NCBI GenBank assembly: GCA_020851635.1
Contig: JADZCJ010000115.1
Location: 1-51,585 of the forward strand
Direction: 5' to 3'
Length of the DNA: 51,585 nt
From: Anaerolineae bacterium
GTDB lineage: Bacteria > Chloroflexota > Anaerolineae > UBA4142 > SHND01
Shown: positions 15,263 to 24,047 of the stretch, piece by piece
Numbering within the stretch: position 1 is the first letter of the stretch
How the letters are laid out: each line of letters opens with the position of its first letter
Notes under the pieces: model-generated
Database searches by the model: none
Told to the model about the DNA's origin: nothing
The model's input: the letters and a program-made list of their open reading frames with translations, nothing else
Program-made: the position numbers and the translations under genes

Positions 15263-16720
15263 ATGTCTGTCACCACTCCTGATTGGGTCAAAGACGCGAT
15301 CTTTTACCAGATTTTTCCCGACCGCTTTGCCAAATCCGAGCGGGTCGAAAAACCGCATCAGCTCGAAAGTTGGGACTCGCCGCCGACTCTCCACGGGTTC
15401 AAAGGCGGCGACCTGCTGGGGGTGGTCGAGCATCTCGAGCATCTCGTCGAGCTCGGCGCCAATGCGATCTACTTTTGCCCCATCTTTCAATCCACCGCCA
15501 ACCACCGGTATCATACACACGACTATTTTCGCGTTGACCCCGTGCTGGGCGATAACGATGCTTTGAGACATCTTGTGGCTGAAGCGCACGCGCGCGGCAT
15601 CCGTGTCGTGCTCGACGGTGTGTTTAATCATGCGTCGCGCGGGTTTTACTATTTCAATCACACCCTCGAAAACGGCAAGGACTCGCCCTATCTCGATTGG
15701 TTCATCTTTAACGGCTTTCCTCTCAATCCATACGGCGAAGGACCCGCAAATTACGCCGCGTGGTGGAACCTCAAAGCGCTGCCCAAACTCAATACTGCCA
15801 ACCCACAGGTGCGCGAATACATTATGCGCGTGGGCGAGTATTGGATGGAATATGGCATTGACGGCTGGCGGCTCGATGTGCCTGCCGAGATTGACGACGA
15901 CTCGTTTTGGCAAGAGTTTCGTCGGCGCATCAAGGCAAAAAACTCTGAAGCGTATATCGTCGGTGAAATCTGGCACCGCGCCGACCGCTGGCTGCAGGGC
16001 GACCAGTTCGATGCGGTCATGAATTATCAATTCACACGCGCCGCCGTTTCATTTTGTATTGGGGCGCGACATGCGAACAAGGAACTGCTGCAAGATTCCA
16101 GTTACGGCGACGTTATCACGGCGGACGCGCGCTATTTCGCCGACACACTGGAACATGTCCAAACATGGTATCACCCCGAAATCACCTACGCGCAAATGAA
16201 CTTGCTGGACAGTCATGACACGGCGCGGTTTCTCTCGATCGCAAAAAGCGACAAAACTGCCCTCAAACTTGCATGGCTCGCCCTGTTCACATATCCGGGC
16301 GCGCCGACTCTATATTACGGCGATGAAATCGGAATCGAGGGCGGCAAAGACCCCGACTGCCGGCGCGGGATGGTGTGGGACCGCGCCCAATGGGACATGG
16401 ACCTATGGGAGACCGCGCGGAACCTCATCGCGTTGCGTAAAAAGTATCGCGTATTCCGCCGTCCGGGCGGATATGCGCGCCTGCACGACCAGGGCATGGT
16501 TTATGCTTTTGCTCGCGAACTCGAAGGCGAAATCGCGATTGTGATCCTTAATGCGGGCGCGCAACCCGCCTCACTGGATTTGCAGGTCAGTTCGATTCTC
16601 AAGGACGGAACGCAGCTCAAACAAGAATGGGGACACGCAAGCGTCCGGGTGGAACACGGCAAGCTGCCCAACCTGCAAATTGATGCGCGCCAGGGTCAGG
16701 TGTGGACCCTTCAAGAATGA
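15263..16720 (+). CDS. GH13 alpha-glucosidase/neopullulanase-like alpha-amylase family enzyme
   Basis: A 485-residue cytoplasmic-type enzyme (no signal peptide) beginning WVKDAIFYQIFPDRFA, as in neopullulanases and cyclomaltodextrinases, but lacking their N-terminal starch-binding domain. All four GH13 regions are visible: DGVFNHAS, GWRLDVPAE with nucleophile Asp205, VGEIWH with acid Glu235, and LLDSHDTAR with His318 and Asp319. It should hydrolyse short alpha-glucans or maltodextrins. The 51-base gap upstream contains a bulged hairpin (AGTAGAC at 15207, GTCTACT at 15244) and no clear ribosome site. The stop overlaps the start of the zinc-binding protein gene (ATGA), an odd metabolic pairing. 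Confidence 0.9.
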   Translation: MSVTTPDWVKDAIFYQIFPDRFAKSERVEKPHQLESWDSPPTLHGFKGGDLLGVVEHLEHLVELGANAIYFCPIFQSTANHRYHTHDYFRVDPVLGDNDALRHLVAEAHARGIRVVLDGVFNHASRGFYYFNHTLENGKDSPYLDWFIFNGFPLNPYGEGPANYAAWWNLKALPKLNTANPQVREYIMRVGEYWMEYGIDGWRLDVPAEIDDDSFWQEFRRRIKAKNSEAYIVGEIWHRADRWLQGDQFDAVMNYQFTRAAVSFCIGARHANKELLQDSSYGDVITADARYFADTLEHVQTWYHPEITYAQMNLLDSHDTARFLSIAKSDKTALKLAWLALFTYPGAPTLYYGDEIGIEGGKDPDCRRGMVWDRAQWDMDLWETARNLIALRKKYRVFRRPGGYARLHDQGMVYAFARELEGEIAIVILNAGAQPASLDLQVSSILKDGTQLKQEWGHASVRVEHGKLPNLQIDARQGQVWTLQE

Positions 16721-17739
16721 CCGCCCGGCACTTGGACAATGAGCATCTGGTTCGATCAGCAAGCTTGAGCCGACGGCTCGGACAGCATCCAACCCTTGTC
16801 TTGATTGTGTGCGCTGTTTTGCTCGCGTTCGCCGTTGGCTGCGCCCCCGCGCCCCTATCCGTCGCGCCATCAGACAGCACAGGCGCCGCCGCGCCGCAAA
16901 CAAATCTCCGAGTAGTCGCGGTCGAATCGTTTCTGTCTGACATTGCCCAAAACGTCGCGGGTGACCGGGTTGTGATTGACACGCTGATTCCCCTTGGCAC
17001 AGACCCGCACAGTTTTGAACCCACACCGCAAGACCTGAAAAAAGTTGCCGACAGCAACGTGTTGATCATCAACGGCGCGGGCTTGGAGGTCTTTGTCGCC
17101 CGGCTGCTCGAAAACGCGGGCGGCGACCGAACCATTATTACCGCATCGCAAGGGCTTGCCCCGCGCGCCATCAAGCAAGGCGAGCCGGGGCAAAAAAACG
17201 AGCAGCACGAGGACGATCCACACTTTTGGCTAAATCCGCTGAATGTCATTCAATATGCCGAAAACATTCGCGATGGCTTGACCGCGATTGACCCCGCCGG
17301 CGCTCCCATTTACAAAACCAACGCCGAGACGTATGTCAAAAAACTGACGGCGTTGGATGCAGACATTCAAGCGCAGACCGACACCATTCCCACTGCCAAT
17401 CGCAAACTCGTCACCGACCACGACACTCTTGGTTACTATGCGGACCGCTACGGGTTTGAAATTGTCGGGATGCTGGTTCCCGGTTCGAGCGCCGCAAATT
17501 CCCCCAGCGCGCAGCAATTGGCAGAATTGGTTGACCGCGTCCGGGATTCGGGCGCGCGAGCCATTTTTCTCGAATCAAGCACGGACCCCCGCCTGGCGGA
17601 GCAGGTGGCGCAGGATACCGGCGTTCAAATCGTCACAGAGCTTTATACGCACTCGCTCAGCGGACCCGATGGACCCGCGCCGACCTATATCCAAATGCTA
17701 AAATACGATACCGACCTGATTGCGCAGGCGCTCCAATGA
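16717..17739 (+). CDS. znuA: Zinc-type ABC transporter substrate-binding lipoprotein (ZnuA/TroA family)
   Basis: 340 residues: a basic N-region, a hydrophobic segment ending AFAVGC (probable lipidated Cys), then the cluster A-1 metal-binding fold. Likely ligands are His98 (DPHSFEPTP), His169 (DDPHFWLNP), His235 (TDHDTLGYY) and Asp290 (STDPRLAEQ). A histidine at the third position is characteristic of zinc binders, while manganese binders carry Glu. A short His/acidic stretch (NEQHEDDPH) precedes the second ligand. The start is taken at the ATGA overlap with the GH13 stop; a GTG five codons upstream is also in frame. It feeds the ATPase and permease that follow, each overlapping by four bases. 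Confidence 0.88.
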   Translation: MTARHLDNEHLVRSASLSRRLGQHPTLVLIVCAVLLAFAVGCAPAPLSVAPSDSTGAAAPQTNLRVVAVESFLSDIAQNVAGDRVVIDTLIPLGTDPHSFEPTPQDLKKVADSNVLIINGAGLEVFVARLLENAGGDRTIITASQGLAPRAIKQGEPGQKNEQHEDDPHFWLNPLNVIQYAENIRDGLTAIDPAGAPIYKTNAETYVKKLTALDADIQAQTDTIPTANRKLVTDHDTLGYYADRYGFEIVGMLVPGSSAANSPSAQQLAELVDRVRDSGARAIFLESSTDPRLAEQVAQDTGVQIVTELYTHSLSGPDGPAPTYIQMLKYDTDLIAQALQ

Positions 17740-18602
17740 GGACGAACGCACAAGGACAACGCGAAACAATCCATAAATCACAGATGTCGCCTTCGCATCT
17801 CCAAATCCATGACCTGTCCGTCGCGTATCACAACGGGACGCGCCTTGCGCTTGAGGGGGTGTCGTTCGACGTCCCTCAAGGGATGCGTCTGGCTGTCGTG
17901 GGACCAAACGGCGCGGGGAAATCTACGTTGTTCAAAGCGATCGTCGGGCTCCTCCCGCCCGAGCGCGGCGAAATTCTGATTCACGGCACACCCTATGGCG
18001 CGCACAAGCAATGTGCGGCATATGTGCCGCAGCGCAAAGAGGTGGATTGGAGTTTTCCCGTCAATGTTCAGGATGTGGTGATGATGGGGCGGTATGGGTC
18101 GCTCAGCTGGCTCAAATATCCCTCAAAAAGCGACCACGCGATCGTAAAACGTTCGCTCGAACAAATGAACATCGGCGCGCTGGCAAAACGTCCCATCGGC
18201 GACTTGTCCGGTGGGCAGCAGCAGCGCGTGTTCCTTGCCCGCGCTTTGGCGCAAGAACCGCATATTTTGCTGATGGACGAACCCTTTACCGGGGTTGACG
18301 CGGCGACTCAAGAGGGGATGCTCAATCTTTTGGACAAGCTGCAAACGCAAGGTATGACATGCATCGTTTCGACTCATGACATGAATCTCGCCGCCACCCG
18401 TTTTGACCGCGCGCTCCTCTTGAATCAGCGGATCATTGCCTATGGCGCGCCCGCGCAGGTATTTACGACCGAAAATCTGCTGCGCGCGTTCGGCGCACAC
18501 GCCATGCTCGTGGATGGACAGACCCTTGTGGACGAATGCTGTCCGCCCGACGAACATTTTCAGATCGGCGAATCGCCCGAGCTCGAGCGGCTCGAAGAAT
18601 GA
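17736..18602 (+). CDS. znuC: Zinc/manganese ABC transporter ATPase
   Basis: 288 residues with Walker A VVGPNGAGKSTL, Q-loop region YVPQRKEVDWSFPVNVQDVV (typical of the Zn/Mn importer class), signature LSGGQQQRV, Walker B ILLMDEPF and switch His in VSTHD. It starts in an ATGA overlap with the binding-protein gene, adding about 16 residues before the usual N-terminus; an internal ATG at 17784 would give the more usual length. It powers uptake through the permease at 18599. Zn is preferred over Mn because of the binding protein's third histidine. Confidence 0.9.
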   Translation: MRTNAQGQRETIHKSQMSPSHLQIHDLSVAYHNGTRLALEGVSFDVPQGMRLAVVGPNGAGKSTLFKAIVGLLPPERGEILIHGTPYGAHKQCAAYVPQRKEVDWSFPVNVQDVVMMGRYGSLSWLKYPSKSDHAIVKRSLEQMNIGALAKRPIGDLSGGQQQRVFLARALAQEPHILLMDEPFTGVDAATQEGMLNLLDKLQTQGMTCIVSTHDMNLAATRFDRALLLNQRIIAYGAPAQVFTTENLLRAFGAHAMLVDGQTLVDECCPPDEHFQIGESPELERLEE

Positions 18603-19480
18603 TCGAATTTCTCACCCAGCCGCTCGCCTATGGTTTTATGCAGCGCGGCATGATCGCGGCAATCATGGTCGGCGTCTTGTGCTCTGTCATTGGCTGCTAT
18701 GTCGTCTTGCGCGGCATGGCGTATCTGGGTGATGCCATTGCCCACGCCATCCTCCCCGGCGTGGCGATCGCGTATATCCTTCAGGGGGACATCCTGATCG
18801 GCGCGCTTGTGGCGGCGCTGCTCGTGGCGCTCGGCATCGGGTTCTTGACGCGCCGCGGCACGATCAAACAAGACACCGCCATCGGCATCCTCTTTGCCGC
18901 CGCGCTCTCTCTGGGCGTCGCGCTCATCAGCACGATCAAAACGTATGCCCTCGACCTGACCCACATTCTCTTTGGCAATGTGCTGGGCGTGAGCAACAGC
19001 GACCTCATTTTGATTGCAGGACTGGGGCTGGTCGTGCTGTTGACCATCCTGCTCCTTTACAAAGAGCTGCTGATTGTTTCGTTCGACCCTGTGCTGGCAG
19101 CCACCTTGCGGCTGCCCACCGAGCTCTTGAAAAACACTCTCCTCATCCTCATCGCGCTCTCGGTCGTCATCTCTCTCCAAACCGTCGGCGTGGGTCTCGT
19201 CGCCGCCATGTTGGTCACGCCCGCTGCCACCGCATTTCTGCTCACCCGTCGTCTCCCTGCCATGATGGTGGTTTCCGCCGCGCTCGGCGCGTTCGCTTCG
19301 ATCACGGGCTTGTATCTTTCGTACTATCTCAACATCTCTTCGGGCGCAGCAGTCGTTCTGACTGCCACCAGCTTGTTTTTTGGCGCGTATCTGTTTGCCC
19401 CGCACCGCGGCATCGTCTGGCATCTGGGCGGACGCGCGCGCCGCGCCAATGGACGCACAGAATCTACAAATGCGGAATGA
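18599..19480 (+). CDS. znuB: Zinc/manganese ABC transporter permease (ABC-3 family)
   Basis: 293 residues from the ATG at 18599, which overlaps the ATPase stop by four bases; a longer frame upstream lies inside that gene. About eight hydrophobic segments and the family landmarks GCYVVLRGMAYLGDAIAHAILPG and GLVAAMLVTPAATAFLL are present. It forms the homodimeric channel. Its stop is one base from the convergent cbiO stop, leaving no room for a terminator between opposing operons. Confidence 0.9.
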   Translation: MIEFLTQPLAYGFMQRGMIAAIMVGVLCSVIGCYVVLRGMAYLGDAIAHAILPGVAIAYILQGDILIGALVAALLVALGIGFLTRRGTIKQDTAIGILFAAALSLGVALISTIKTYALDLTHILFGNVLGVSNSDLILIAGLGLVVLLTILLLYKELLIVSFDPVLAATLRLPTELLKNTLLILIALSVVISLQTVGVGLVAAMLVTPAATAFLLTRRLPAMMVVSAALGAFASITGLYLSYYLNISSGAAVVLTATSLFFGAYLFAPHRGIVWHLGGRARRANGRTESTNAE

Positions 19481-19481
19481 C

Positions 19482-20201
19482 CTATGGTTTTTCCAACCCA
19501 TGCGCGGTCAACAGGGGCTCGTCCTGCAATATTTTTTCGGTTGCGCCATCCGCCACAATCCTGCCCCCGTCCATAATCAGCGTGCGCGGCAGCAGCTCCA
19601 TGACCATTCGCAAATCATGCGTGGCGATCAACATTGTCTGCGGCAGCTCGCGCAGCAGATGAATCAGACTGCGCCGCGCGCGAGGGTCAAGCCCTGCGCT
19701 CGGCTCATCGAGCACCAGAATTTCCGGTTCCATCGAAAGCACGGTCGCAATCGCAATCCGTTTTTTTTGCCCAACACTCAAATGATGTGACACGCGACCC
19801 GCATACTCTTGCATTCGCACCGCCGCCAGCGCGCGGTCCACTCGCTCGCGCACCTGCGCTTCGCTCAAACCCTGATAAATCGGACCAAAAGCCACATCAT
19901 CAAACACCGTCGGCGAAAAGAGTTGATCGTCGGGGTCTTGAAACACCAGCCCCACCGCCGCGCGCACTTTGCCGAGGTTGCCGTTCTGATTCACTTCCAG
20001 CCCCGCGACCTTGACCTCGCCATTGCCGCTCAAAATGCCGTTCAGATGCAGGATCAACGTTGATTTGCCCGCGCCGTTCGGACCGACCAGCGCGACCTTT
20101 TCGCCCGGCGCAATCGAAAACGTCACGCCATCCAGCGCGTGCGTGCCGTCGGGATACTTGAAAATGAGATTGCGTACCTCTATCGTGTGATGCACAAACA
20201 A
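19482..20201 (-). CDS. cbiO: Nickel/cobalt ECF transporter ATPase (CbiO/NikO-like)
   Basis: 239 residues with Walker A LVGPNGAGKSTL, Q-loop GLVFQDPDDQLFSPTVFDDV (characteristic of ECF ATPases), signature SVGQKKRIAIA and Walker B ILVLDEPSAGLD. Single ATPase gene, so it probably works as a homodimer. It starts four bases after the cbiQ stop and is last in the fur-cbiM-cbiQ-cbiO operon. Whether nickel or cobalt is carried depends on the CbiM subunit; the regulator box suggests nickel. Confidence 0.9.
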   Translation of the reverse strand: MFVHHTIEVRNLIFKYPDGTHALDGVTFSIAPGEKVALVGPNGAGKSTLILHLNGILSGNGEVKVAGLEVNQNGNLGKVRAAVGLVFQDPDDQLFSPTVFDDVAFGPIYQGLSEAQVRERVDRALAAVRMQEYAGRVSHHLSVGQKKRIAIATVLSMEPEILVLDEPSAGLDPRARRSLIHLLRELPQTMLIATHDLRMVMELLPRTLIMDGGRIVADGATEKILQDEPLLTAHGLEKP

Positions 20202-20205
20202 TGCC

Positions 20206-21012
20206 TCAACGCGCGACCAGATTCGCGATAAACAAGATCAACAAACAGACCAACAACCCGCCGCCGAGCATCATCCAATGCCCAATTTGTAGAGGCGGCG
20301 CCGCAAACGCGCGCGCCTCGCCATCATAACCCCGCGCGCGCATGGCGGCATAAATACGGTCGCCGCGGTCAAATCCGCGGACAAACAAATTTCCCGTCAT
20401 GCCGCCGGTCACCCGGGCTCGCCAGGCGATCGAGCCGCCCGTTTTGCCGCCCAACTGCGGCGACGCGCCGCTGCGGGCGCTGCGCGCCCGCATCAGCCGA
20501 AGCGCTTCATCCGCCAAAACAAATATATATCGCCACATCAGCCCCAGGACCGCGACCAGTAGTTTGGGCACATGCAGCGCCCGCAGCGCCCACAGCAATT
20601 CCGGAAACGAGGTCGTCGCCGCAAGCACAATCGCCATCTGCACCGAAATCCACGACTTGACTGCAATGCTCAAGAACCGTTCGACGCCCGGCGCCGTGAT
20701 GGTGAGATTCCACGACAAGAACGGGGCCGTCACCAACACCTCACCGGGGACTGTGAAAATGAGAGGAAGCGCCGCGAGCAGAAAAGGCGTCGCCAGGACC
20801 GAACGTTTGACCACATAACCGATCCCCAGTTCAGACAAGAGCTCGACCGAAAGCACAATCGCCAGGAGCAGGATATAGGCAGCCCACGCGCCAAACGGCG
20901 TCAGCGATACAGTGACGATAAACATCAACGTCAACGCCAGTTTCACTCGCGAGTCCAGGCGGTGAATTACGCTGTCGCCCGCGCGGTGCGGGTCTAGAAA
21001 ATGAACATGCAT
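20206..21012 (-). CDS. cbiQ: Nickel/cobalt ECF transporter transmembrane subunit CbiQ
   Basis: 268 residues from the ATG at 21012 (MHVHFLDPHRAG). In-frame starts further upstream would translate through the terminator-like hairpin, so they are rejected. The chain has five or six hydrophobic segments and the coupling-helix region ADEALRLMRARSARSG that contacts the ATPases. No good Shine-Dalgarno sequence is visible. It lies 61 bases after cbiM, across the hairpin at 21024-21058, so its expression probably depends on read-through. Confidence 0.87.
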   Translation of the reverse strand: MHVHFLDPHRAGDSVIHRLDSRVKLALTLMFIVTVSLTPFGAWAAYILLLAIVLSVELLSELGIGYVVKRSVLATPFLLAALPLIFTVPGEVLVTAPFLSWNLTITAPGVERFLSIAVKSWISVQMAIVLAATTSFPELLWALRALHVPKLLVAVLGLMWRYIFVLADEALRLMRARSARSGASPQLGGKTGGSIAWRARVTGGMTGNLFVRGFDRGDRIYAAMRARGYDGEARAFAAPPLQIGHWMMLGGGLLVCLLILFIANLVAR

Positions 21013-21023
21013 CTGCGGGGGTC

Positions 21024-21058
21024 CGCAAAAAATGGCGCGCAAGGTTGGCGCGCCATTT
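21024..21058 (-). terminator. Terminator-like hairpin inside the cbiM-cbiQ operon
   Basis: On the minus strand AAATGGCGCG and CGCGCCATTT form a perfect ten-base-pair stem with six T residues in a row at its 3' side. It lies 15 bases after the cbiM stop and 12 bases before the cbiQ start. Partial termination would lower CbiQ/CbiO relative to CbiM. Confidence 0.75.
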
Positions 21059-21073
21059 CTCATTGGATTTCGT

Positions 21074-22033
21074 TCAGTTTGCCGTTGCGCGTCCCTTGCG
21101 TGCGCGCGCAATGACGAACGCGACGCCGCCGACCAATAGGGTCCCCACCACCCCTGCCAGAATGGTCGCCGCTTCGGGGCTGTTGACGCCGGGAAAAGTG
21201 TAATCGGGAATCAGTTGATACGGCGCGCCCATTGCGCGTTCCAAAAAGCCCGACTGTTCCGCCACCCATTCCAGACCATCGGGGAACGACGACGCCAGGG
21301 GTGACAAGAGCGCCAGCCCGAGCGCCAGCGCCAACCCAAAAACCCACACCGTTCGACTGACAGGTTTGCTATCCTGCGACGTGATTAAATCCCGGCGGGT
21401 CGCATACAGGAACGCCAACGCGCCCGCCGTAATCAGCCCTTCGCCAATTCCGATAACGATATGCACGCCCACCATTGCGGGGAGCGCAATATTGAACGGC
21501 GATGTGCCGGAAACGCCCAACGCCAGCGCGACGCCGATTGAAGTAACAACCACCGACAGCCATGCCGCAAGAAACCCGCCAACGAAAATTCCCCACGACT
21601 TGTTGCCCGAAAAACGCTGCACCGTCCGATACACGAAATACGCAACGGTCGTGGCAACCACACCCATAAAAAAGATGTTGGCGCCGAGCGCCAAAATTCC
21701 GCCGTCCTGGAATATCAGTGCTTGCACGGAAACAACACAGGTCATGATAATGATGGCAGCCCAGGGCCCCAGCAAGATTGTTGCCAACGCCGCGCCAATC
21801 AAATGCCCCGATGTCCCGCCCGCGACCGGAAAATTCAACATCTGCCCGGCAAAGATCACCGCAGCCAGCACGCCCATTTCCGGGACCTGCCGTTCTCCCA
21901 AATCCTTGCCGACCATTCGCAGCGCATAGCCGACAACGATGACTGAAACAAGCCACATCACAACGGCGACGGCGACCGACAAAAAGCCATCCGGGATGTG
22001 CATCAATGGTGGAGCGTGCGGCACGGATAACAT
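21074..22033 (-). CDS. cbiM: Nickel/cobalt ECF transporter substrate subunit, CbiM-CbiN fusion
   Basis: 319 residues. The first ~215 are CbiM, with MHIPDGFLS, QMLNFPVAGGTSGHLIGA and about seven membrane segments. The last ~100 contain SPLASSFPDGLEWVAEQSGF and a final membrane segment, the PDGLE/CbiN-type module usually encoded separately. The ATG at 22033 is supported by AGGAGG seven bases upstream. It places ten residues (MLSVPHAPPL) before the conserved Met-His, which in studied NikM/CbiM proteins is the very N-terminus and binds metal. An internal start at 22003 would restore it. It follows the Fur-type gene by 75 bases. Confidence 0.9.
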   Translation of the reverse strand: MLSVPHAPPLMHIPDGFLSVAVAVVMWLVSVIVVGYALRMVGKDLGERQVPEMGVLAAVIFAGQMLNFPVAGGTSGHLIGAALATILLGPWAAIIIMTCVVSVQALIFQDGGILALGANIFFMGVVATTVAYFVYRTVQRFSGNKSWGIFVGGFLAAWLSVVVTSIGVALALGVSGTSPFNIALPAMVGVHIVIGIGEGLITAGALAFLYATRRDLITSQDSKPVSRTVWVFGLALALGLALLSPLASSFPDGLEWVAEQSGFLERAMGAPYQLIPDYTFPGVNSPEAATILAGVVGTLLVGGVAFVIARARKGRATAN

Positions 22034-22108: not shown

Positions 22109-22567
22109 TTAGCGTTTCTTGTGCCCGGCAGAGCGTGTCTGACACTTGTGGCACGTCCCAAAGATGGCGAAATGATGCAGACTCGGCTGAAAGCCGTATT
22201 TGGCTTTGATCTTGCGCCCCAACGGCACGAGCAAAGCATTATCCATCACAGTGACGTGCTTGCACTTGTTACACACCAGGTGATGATGCGACGGCTGGCG
22301 CAACAATTCGTACTCGGACTTGCCGCCGCCCAGGTCGGTGACCGTCACCAATCCGATTTCGGTCAGCAGGTCAAGACTGCGGTAGACGGCGGACTTGTTC
22401 AGGTGGGGATGCTGTTTCCGCACACGCGCCAGCACTTGTTCGGCGGTCAAATGGGTTTCGCTGTCGGCGATGACCCCCAATACCATTTCGCGCTGCGGCG
22501 TCAGGCGATGTCCGCTTCCCCGCAGCGATTGGACCAGCTCACGATGATCGTTCGTGGATCTATTCAT
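22109..22567 (-). CDS. Fur-family metalloregulator, probably of nickel uptake (Nur/Zur-like)
   Basis: 152 residues with the N-terminal winged helix (HRLTPQREMVLGVIADSETHLTAEQV... SAVYRSLDLLTEIGLV) and the C-terminal dimer domain. HHHLVCNKC and CHKC supply regulatory histidines and a Cys4 structural zinc site. It is the first gene of the nickel/cobalt operon and lies behind a palindrome overlapping its own promoter. The palindrome type (TTGCAA-N4-TTGCAG) recalls the Nur box of actinobacteria, hence the nickel suggestion. Zur or Fur function cannot be excluded from sequence. No Shine-Dalgarno sequence is visible before the ATG. Confidence 0.85.
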   Translation of the reverse strand: MNRSTNDHRELVQSLRGSGHRLTPQREMVLGVIADSETHLTAEQVLARVRKQHPHLNKSAVYRSLDLLTEIGLVTVTDLGGGKSEYELLRQPSHHHLVCNKCKHVTVMDNALLVPLGRKIKAKYGFQPSLHHFAIFGTCHKCQTRSAGHKKR

Positions 22568-22571
22568 ATCA

Positions 22572-22622
22572 ATTGCAACCAGTTGCAGTTAGAGTTTATA
22601 GCTTTTAGAGACAGGATGTCAA
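22572..22622 (-). promoter_or_regulatory. Promoter and palindromic operator of the fur-cbiMQO operon
   Basis: On the minus strand, -35 TTGACA (22622-22617), a 16-base spacer and -10 TATAAA (22600-22595). The palindrome ATTGCAAC-CA-GTTGCAGT (plus-strand 22572-22589, one mismatch between arms) covers the expected start site and ends five bases before the ATG. It resembles the published Nur consensus tTGCaa-N5-ttGCAA but has four bases between half-sites. Confidence 0.75.
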
Positions 22623-22627
22623 ATGTT

Positions 22628-22657
22628 AAAAAAACCCCCTCTCGAGTCGAGAGGGGG
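22628..22657 (-). terminator. Terminator of the PucC-like transporter gene
   Basis: On the minus strand CCCCCTCTCG and CGAGAGGGGG pair across a three-base loop (22657-22635), followed by seven T residues. It ends just before the -35 box of the fur-cbiMQO promoter, cleanly separating the two units. Confidence 0.92.
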
Positions 22658-22691
22658 CGAGGAGACATCGGGAAACGCAAAGTCCGGTTCT

Positions 22692-24047
22692 TTACATCTC
22701 GGCTGCAATCACCTGCGCGTCCGTTATGGGGATACGCCCTGCGTCGCGCGCAAAACTCGCGATATTGACTCGCGTCAGGAGCAGGATGGAAACGAGCAGC
22801 CCCAGACCTTCCAGACCAAAGATCACGCCATATGCCAGCGAATAGGACTGGAACAGAGCGTGCAGCGCGTCGCGCAGCGCGCCCCCCGCAAAAATTCCCA
22901 CTCCGCGCGTCAACAGAATTGTCACCGTCCACAAACCCAGATACGCGCCCGCCGCCTTGTCCAAAGTCATGACCACCATCAGCTGAAAAGCCGCAAAGGT
23001 ATAAAACCCAAAACCGATGCCAAACACCAGCAGCGCGGGATTCACAATCCAGCGGATCTCGCTGAACGCCGTCAGCGCGAGCAGCAACATGCCCACGCCC
23101 ATGATCCCCAAACCTATTTTGGCGATGGGACCTTGTTTTTCCGGCGGACGTTTGCGCCAGATGATGGCGGCAGCTATCAATATCAACGCCGTCGCGCCCT
23201 GCCAGGTGCTCGAATAGCGCGTGGTCTGCGCCATCGTCGCCTGCAGCACTTCGGCGCCGAACGGTTCGAGAATCGCATCCTGCGCCCACGCCGACAGGGT
23301 CGCGACACCCAAAAAGAGCATAAAGGCGCGCGCACGCGGGTCATCCCAGATTTTTCGCATCGCCGCGTGAAATTCCTTGAACTGGGCGCGCGTTGTCTCC
23401 TGGGTGTGTTCCGACGCCTTTTGAATGACCGCGCGTTTTTCAACACCCCAGATCGAAAAGACCCAGAAAAAGCCGCCGACTGCCGCCGTGAGCACGATCA
23501 ATTCCCAAAAACCCGCCAGCGTATAGGTGCTCAGCATCAGACTGAACGCAATCGCCGCGATCGGGAAACATAGAATCAGCACCGTTTCAGCAATCGAAAG
23601 CGCAAGCCCTTGACGCACTTTGGGCATCGCATCCCGCACCAGCGCCAAAAACGGACTGCCCGACAACAACGTGCCCGTGCCATAAAGCAAAAAAGAGCAG
23701 AGCGCCACAACCCAGGCGATTGAATCGTTTCGGTTCATTTCGAAAAGCGTAACGCTCAGTCCCAAAAGCGGAAACGAGGCGACCATAAGCCCGCGCCCAA
23801 GCCAGATATAGGACGTGCGCTTCATGCCCATAAAAGGTGTCGTGTCCGAACGAAAGCCCGCATACATGCTCAACGGTGATAGCAGATAACGCAAGGCAAT
23901 CAGCGCGCCTACGGGCAGCGCCGGAAACCCGAAATTTACAATCATGATGCGATTCCAGATCGAAGTGACCAGAATATCGCCCATCGCAGACCCGATTTGA
24001 AATGTGCAAATGCGGAGCAACAGTCCCCAACTAAAACGCGGTTCCAT
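22692..24047 (-). CDS. BCD/PucC-family major facilitator superfamily protein
   Basis: 451 residues with about twelve hydrophobic segments. The N-terminal half has NRIMIVNFGFPALPVGALIA and GFRSDTTPFMGMKRTSYIWLGR, and the second half has AQDAILEPFGAEVL, patterns of the bacteriochlorophyll-delivery (PucC/LhaA) MFS branch. In phototrophs these proteins help assemble light-harvesting complexes. No photosynthesis gene lies nearby, so the role here is open: a tetrapyrrole or other substrate transporter is possible. AAGGAA precedes the ATG. It has its own promoter and terminator and is probably monocistronic. Confidence 0.85.
   Translation of the reverse strand: MEPRFSWGLLLRICTFQIGSAMGDILVTSIWNRIMIVNFGFPALPVGALIALRYLLSPLSMYAGFRSDTTPFMGMKRTSYIWLGRGLMVASFPLLGLSVTLFEMNRNDSIAWVVALCSFLLYGTGTLLSGSPFLALVRDAMPKVRQGLALSIAETVLILCFPIAAIAFSLMLSTYTLAGFWELIVLTAAVGGFFWVFSIWGVEKRAVIQKASEHTQETTRAQFKEFHAAMRKIWDDPRARAFMLFLGVATLSAWAQDAILEPFGAEVLQATMAQTTRYSSTWQGATALILIAAAIIWRKRPPEKQGPIAKIGLGIMGVGMLLLALTAFSEIRWIVNPALLVFGIGFGFYTFAAFQLMVVMTLDKAAGAYLGLWTVTILLTRGVGIFAGGALRDALHALFQSYSLAYGVIFGLEGLGLLVSILLLTRVNIASFARDAGRIPITDAQVIAAEM

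Follow-up and report, generated by a model that had tools for sequence, protein, structure and literature searches.

A conserved 8-0-8 palindrome in Anaerolineae through which a Fur-family repressor, most likely a nickel sensor, may act on its own importer operon

A 16-bp palindromic box lies directly before a Fur-family gene in the DNA analysed here (the window: all 51,585 nucleotides of contig JADZCJ010000115.1 from an Anaerolineae bacterium); it is conserved in the same position with one Fur paralogue, and genes for a metal importer follow it. This box is probably, at roughly 0.7, the operator for the product of the Fur-family gene just after it, and in its metal-bound form, most likely with nickel, that protein would repress its own gene and the importer. 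On this sequence evidence, the protein is most likely a nickel sensor and a repressor acting on its own importer operon through the conserved 8-0-8 palindrome. The findings suggest that this bacterial group may use a Fur-family sensor to shut off nickel uptake, one that is like, and yet not identical to, the Nur of Streptomyces.

The box, TTGCAACCAGTTGCAG, occupies window positions 22573-22588 (16 bp) and has a single mismatch to TTGCAAC-N2-GTTGCAA; on the minus strand, in the sense of fur, the putative operator reads CTGCAACTGGTTGCAA and agrees with 13/14 specified bases of TTGCAACNNGTTGCAA. With their weaker outer parts included, the arms extend over 22571-22579 and 22582-22590, with 89% complementarity. 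The full pattern, allowing at most one mismatch, has this one site in the window and was found in 0/100 shuffles. A looser pattern with two mismatches has a chance expectation of 3.6, and because it is so common by chance, the significance of the box lies in the full 14 specified bases and in their conservation.

Upstream of the box, also on the minus strand, the -35 hexamer TTGACA (22617-22622) was assigned from a consensus scan and from the orthologous promoters, most of which have a TTGAC-type hexamer at a similar distance. The predicted -10 hexamer is TATAAA (22595-22600), with a 16-bp spacer to TTGACA, although the consensus scan itself paired TTGACA rather with TAAACT, which overlaps TATAAA, at an 18-bp spacer. 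Read along the minus strand, TTGACA (22622-22617) is followed by 16 bp, TATAAA (22600-22595), 6 bp, the box (22588-22573), 5 bp and the ATG (22567), a spacing by which the box covers the predicted +1 of fur-cbiMQO. A strong intrinsic terminator (22634-22658, minus strand) marks the end of the upstream gene and sets it apart from the fur promoter. That gene (22692-24047) encodes a PUCC-family (bacteriochlorophyll-associated) transporter, and it is kept as a neighbour in 5/5 other genomes of the genus.

The fur-family gene (22109-22567, minus strand) encodes a protein of 152 aa and is the sole PF01475 match in its own genome, which has an estimated completeness of 97.7%. It is followed on the same strand by cbiMN (21074-22003), encoding a CbiM substrate-binding membrane component with a C-terminal PDGLE domain and with its start placed at MHIPDGF, by cbiQ, the ECF T component (20206-21063; TIGR02454 above cut-off), and by cbiO, the ECF ATPase (19482-20195). 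CbiM, CbiQ and an ECF ATPase, together with the PDGLE domain on CbiM, identify a Cbi/NikMNQO ECF importer. We infer that Fur binds the box and represses, with nickel as corepressor: a metal-bound dimer on the 16 bp would span the transcription start and obstruct RNA polymerase, turning off fur and cbiMN-Q-O, and when the metal is short the dimer would leave the box and the importer would be made.

Convergent to this operon is a znuABC-type operon (16717-19480, plus strand) without a preceding Zur-like fur. In three relatives within the genus, such a gene lies ahead of the znuABC-type operon; it is missing in the window and gone from the window genome, and G002 and G004, with a single Fur match each, may be alike in this. 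The start of the znuABC-type operon overlaps the end of an amylase-family gene by 4 bp (15263-17739), and in G003 (locus L047) an amylase-like fragment is followed by a Zur-like fur and then by znuA.

Orthologues of the window Fur were found in 16/20 genomes of the order, as 17 genes, referred to here as nickel-type fur. These include a gene of G018 whose frame is broken by a stop, which was omitted from the tree and assigned by identity and box, and one (L062) whose promoter is cut by a contig end, so that 16 of the 17 promoters are readable. The box precedes all 16 readable order-level orthologues in the same place, with at least 12/14 matches. With a 4-bp spacer, at least 10/12 is reached in 16/16; other spacers (2-8) do so three times among them, and the N5 spacer, the test for a Nur-type operator, reaches 10/12 just once, which does not describe a Nur operator. 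A sequence-only reading had proposed a TTGCAA-type palindrome with a four-base gap, overlapping the start site of a Fur-family gene that drives a nickel/cobalt importer. The palindrome is present with cbiMQO downstream, it lies over the predicted +1, and the gap is real, being kept in every readable order-level orthologue.

The orthologous promoters have in common the order -35, -10, box and AGGAG, with the box columns almost invariant. TTGAC-type and TATA-type hexamers are visible before the box in 15/16 of them, the exception being L047, where they are unclear and a second half-palindrome overlaps the box. That two-mismatch sites are frequent by chance might favour the view that the palindrome is a chance occurrence or an unrelated repeat, but place, sequence and spacing are kept with one paralogue in 16/16 promoters, and this view is hardly credible.

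The znu-linked paralogues (eleven of the order and one of the class) instead have TTGAAAA-N3-TTTTCAA in 12/12 promoters and score at most 9/14 for the TTGCAAC-type box; since the former motif was derived from these same promoters, only the latter score is independent. In the tree, they form a clade of their own with support of 99/99. Across the class, TTGCAA-N4-TTGCAA (at least 10/12) precedes 12/26 further non-Zur-like fur genes, where a 5-bp spacer occurs once, whereas the class-wide Zur-like genes (n=20) have N4 in 0 and N5 in 7. The fur gene of G035 with a perfect TTGCAA-N4-TTGCAA (L069, 5924-7266) is followed by an FmdE-like gene, and FmdE is also a neighbour in the LarC operon of L059 (see below).

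Beyond fur, the box appears to have little reach. It was found with at least 12/14 upstream of 14 among 421 called genes, and all 14 are nickel-type fur; the genes came from 36 sources, made up of the window, 23 loci of which most carry fur, and 12 more. L046 and L050 stand outside the 14 listed genes, L050 probably through a filter for Ns, with own promoters scoring 14/14 and 13/14. A scan of 20 genomes with up to one mismatch returned 37 places versus 16 for a reversed control. Fifteen of the 37 are at nickel-type fur, as are 8/9 exact places, the ninth lying within a gene (L100). Among the other 22, 20 were inspected (all but G004:C122 and G014:C215); at least 10 of these are intragenic and none lies beside a recognisable nickel gene. 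In the window's own genome, up to two mismatches gave 22 places versus 13 for the control, 10 of which were inspected. No box was found near the LarC genes of G008, G012, G014 and G015, which represent 4/5 clear LarC genes of the order. A genome scan for the palindrome near nickel enzymes, put forward in the sequence-only reading, thus came out against a spread over such genes: the box is confined to the fur-importer operon. These scans make the site look like a local autoregulatory operator and not the mark of a wide regulon; it appears to be essentially the autoregulatory site of one operon. In G005 (L114, 4701-4716), a one-mismatch box is found 17 bp ahead of a gene for a helix-turn-helix regulator, possibly by chance.

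None of the inspected places put the box at iron or manganese genes. This speaks against a Fur for iron or manganese that has come to control CbiMQO only by chance, as does a DtxR/MntR-type regulator 7 kb away. The best NCBIfam models for the window Fur are those of Fur/PerR, which would favour such a protein, though the matches are far under the cut-offs; we regard it as very improbable.

The genes that follow nickel-type fur are more informative as to the metal. Downstream of the 17 genes, cbiMQO or cbiM is found in 12, and CbiM carries the PDGLE domain, which presumably marks NikN-type nickel systems, in 7/7 proteins scanned. CooC homologues accompany 5/17, three of these within the cbi operon. 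The gene order in L049 is fur-cooC-cbiM-cooC-cbiQ-cbiO, with L053 and L057 similar, and this interleaving of CooC-like ATPases suggests that nickel import is coupled to the maturation of CO dehydrogenase. The two CooC-like proteins of L051 were matched to the CooC that serves CO dehydrogenase (PDB 3KJE), with values of 1.1e-39 and 2.5e-17. A LarC partner occurs in 1/17, L059, in an operon with genes for a methyltransferase, LarC (PF01969, 1e-130; TIGR00299 above cut-off), FmdE and a NikABC-like transporter, whose NikA-, NikB- and NikC-like matches are all under the cut-offs. In L055, a 6S RNA gene (106-283) is located a few hundred bases upstream of nickel-type fur.

In the remaining importer type, found in 2/17 (G003 and G016), ZnuABC-like genes directly follow nickel-type fur (L047, 5230-8546; L062, 305-3554), in genomes without a CbiM match; znuABC linkage combined with the Zur-paralogue box, the mark of a Zur, is not what the nickel-type fur genes display, as all 16 readable promoters have the TTGCAAC-type box. 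G003 has a second znuABC with a Zur-like gene, as well as a hydrogenase and HypD, and no CbiM, a gene content by which the ZnuABC-like importer after nickel-type fur may carry nickel. Both are candidate nickel importers of a zinc/manganese family. They could also be read as zinc importers, as could CbiMQO, under the control of a zinc sensor, a second Zur; the two orthologues sit before an importer of AztC/ZnuA type, and no further Fur-family gene exists in the window genome that could act as Zur. However, relatives have the separate znuABC-linked paralogue with its own clade and its own box, no link to zinc is known for the CooC and LarC partners, and the window's own znuABC is without a TTGCAAC-type box. 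A zinc sensor is therefore unlikely.

Cobalt is a further candidate, since CbiMQO systems import Co or Ni and the best NCBIfam matches bear cobalt-transporter names; the protein would then be a cobalt sensor, with CbiMQO bringing cobalt for B12. CbiC is required in both known corrin pathways. It was detected in 0/20 genomes of the order (control positive in 7/14), so that none of the 20 shows de novo corrin synthesis, which disfavours cobalt. No cobalamin riboswitch was found in the window or the operon loci searched, and the 15 distinct order-level loci, window included, gave no Rfam family except the 6S RNA in L055. With the CooC and LarC partners also speaking against it, a cobalt sensor is quite improbable.

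The known alternative for nickel, NikR, was likewise found in 0/20 genomes of the order by its C-terminal domain (PF08753; control positive), and the regulator in the window belongs to PF01475. HypD is present in 16/20. The window's own genome encodes a [NiFe] hydrogenase whose large subunit has both CxxC motifs (RICGICPVSH and DPCLSCSTH), and HypD within a hyp cluster. In G004, where the operon is present with the weakest box (12/14), no HypD, NiFe hydrogenase, Prismane/CODH, LarC or urease match was found; counts for PF03063 take in hybrid cluster proteins as well as CODH. A link of nickel-marker presence to nickel-type Fur was considered and failed: four genomes without nickel-type Fur carry nickel-enzyme markers as well, so marker presence does not discriminate.

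Taken together, the CooC, LarC and PDGLE partners, the absence of CbiC and NikR, and the hydrogenase with HypD favour nickel over cobalt and zinc, and with Nur as the nearest solved relative, nickel is the likely ligand and probably the metal sensed. The nickel-sensing Fur homologue that had been proposed from the window stands in part: it is a Fur homologue with Nur as its nearest solved relative and with nickel-associated partners, but two partners are ZnuABC-like, G004 is without any of the nickel enzymes looked for, and the Nur-specific histidines are for the most part missing. Its proposed setting outside the actinobacteria is plausible.

The resemblance to Nur (PDB 3EYY) was seen with the window Fur as a single query, for which it is the best solved relative at 103.7 versus 86.4 bits for the next chain, and again in a 13-member profile search, where Nur came first (148 versus 126). 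When a znuABC-linked paralogue was the query, Nur ranked only 14th among solved relatives, so the resemblance is specific to nickel-type Fur. The tree puts Nur on the side of the nickel-type fur clade, on a poorly supported branch.

The Nur ligand numbers are reportedly those of An et al. 2009, and we take the Ni-site to be His70, His72 and His126, and the M-site to be His33, 86, 88 and 90. In 17 proteins aligned to Nur (16 order-level and L056 of the class), His33, Glu81, His88, His90 and His126 are kept in all. Nur positions 33, 72, 81 and 126 correspond to His39, Asp78, Glu87 and His132 of the window protein. His126 is the only Ni-site histidine retained (17/17): position 70 is V, Q or P (one Y) and position 72 is Asp in 16/17 (one Asn). 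The M-site retains 33, 88 and 90, position 86 being Pro or Glu. The alignment thus has one Nur Ni-site ligand shared in register and the other two not. Four Fur/PerR references and 16 Zur-like proteins have no His at 126 and have His at 125 in 19/20, and further class-level cbi-linked proteins have His126 in 13/15. In the available text of one review, Nur is described with a four-His and a three-His metal site, together with a caution that crystallisation may have produced the second site as an artefact (PMC7055735). As a side check in the Actinobacteria, Nonomuraea gerenzanensis has a Nur-like Fur with both His70 and His72, and the best N5 site at its cbiM is weak (9/12).

It is possible, though we advance it tentatively, that these proteins form a separate nickel-sensing Fur branch, with an even-spaced operator, a rebuilt sensor site (Asp72, His126 and Glu81) and use as a plug-in switch before varied nickel supply systems (two CbiMQO types, NikABC-like with LarC, CooC, and the ZnuABC-type of G003 and G016). 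If so, the last of these would be a nickel importer from a family associated with zinc and manganese, and several unassigned importers would become nickel-importer candidates. A second nickel branch with another ligand set would permit testing which residues make Fur proteins choose nickel, and it would also account for the control of nickel uptake in a group without NikR. The available text of the review names no Fur-family nickel sensor other than Nur (PMC7055735), and cyanobacteria are described as having neither NikR nor Nur (PMC4284471). In titles and abstract openings, a coverage that leaves out most subscription papers, no description of a Fur-family nickel regulator outside Actinobacteria was recognised.

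Among known systems, Nur of Streptomyces coelicolor is closest, being of the Fur family and sharing with nickel-type Fur the TTGCAA half-site, control of a nickel-type importer and the His126 register. Its box consensus is tTGCaa-N5-ttGCAA (PMC3919588), with a spacer of 5 in place of 4, and it has histidines at 70, 72 and 86 where nickel-type Fur has V/Q/P (one Y), D (one N) and P or E. Unlike Nur, the nickel-type fur gene lies inside the importer operon, and Nur also controls sodF/sodN, whereas no second target was found for nickel-type Fur. Given the different spacer and the absence of several Nur metal-site histidines, so that three tested Nur features fail, the regulator is treated as a Nur variant and not as Nur. 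The Zur paralogue linked to znuABC, in the same genus and order, is also of the Fur family and also has its box close ahead of the start codon, in an operon of regulator and importer genes, but differs in its TTGAAAA-N3-TTTTCAA box, its separate clade, its His at 125 and not 126, and its znuABC target. NikR is alike in its job only, the nickel-dependent repression of nickel import, and belongs to an unrelated family.
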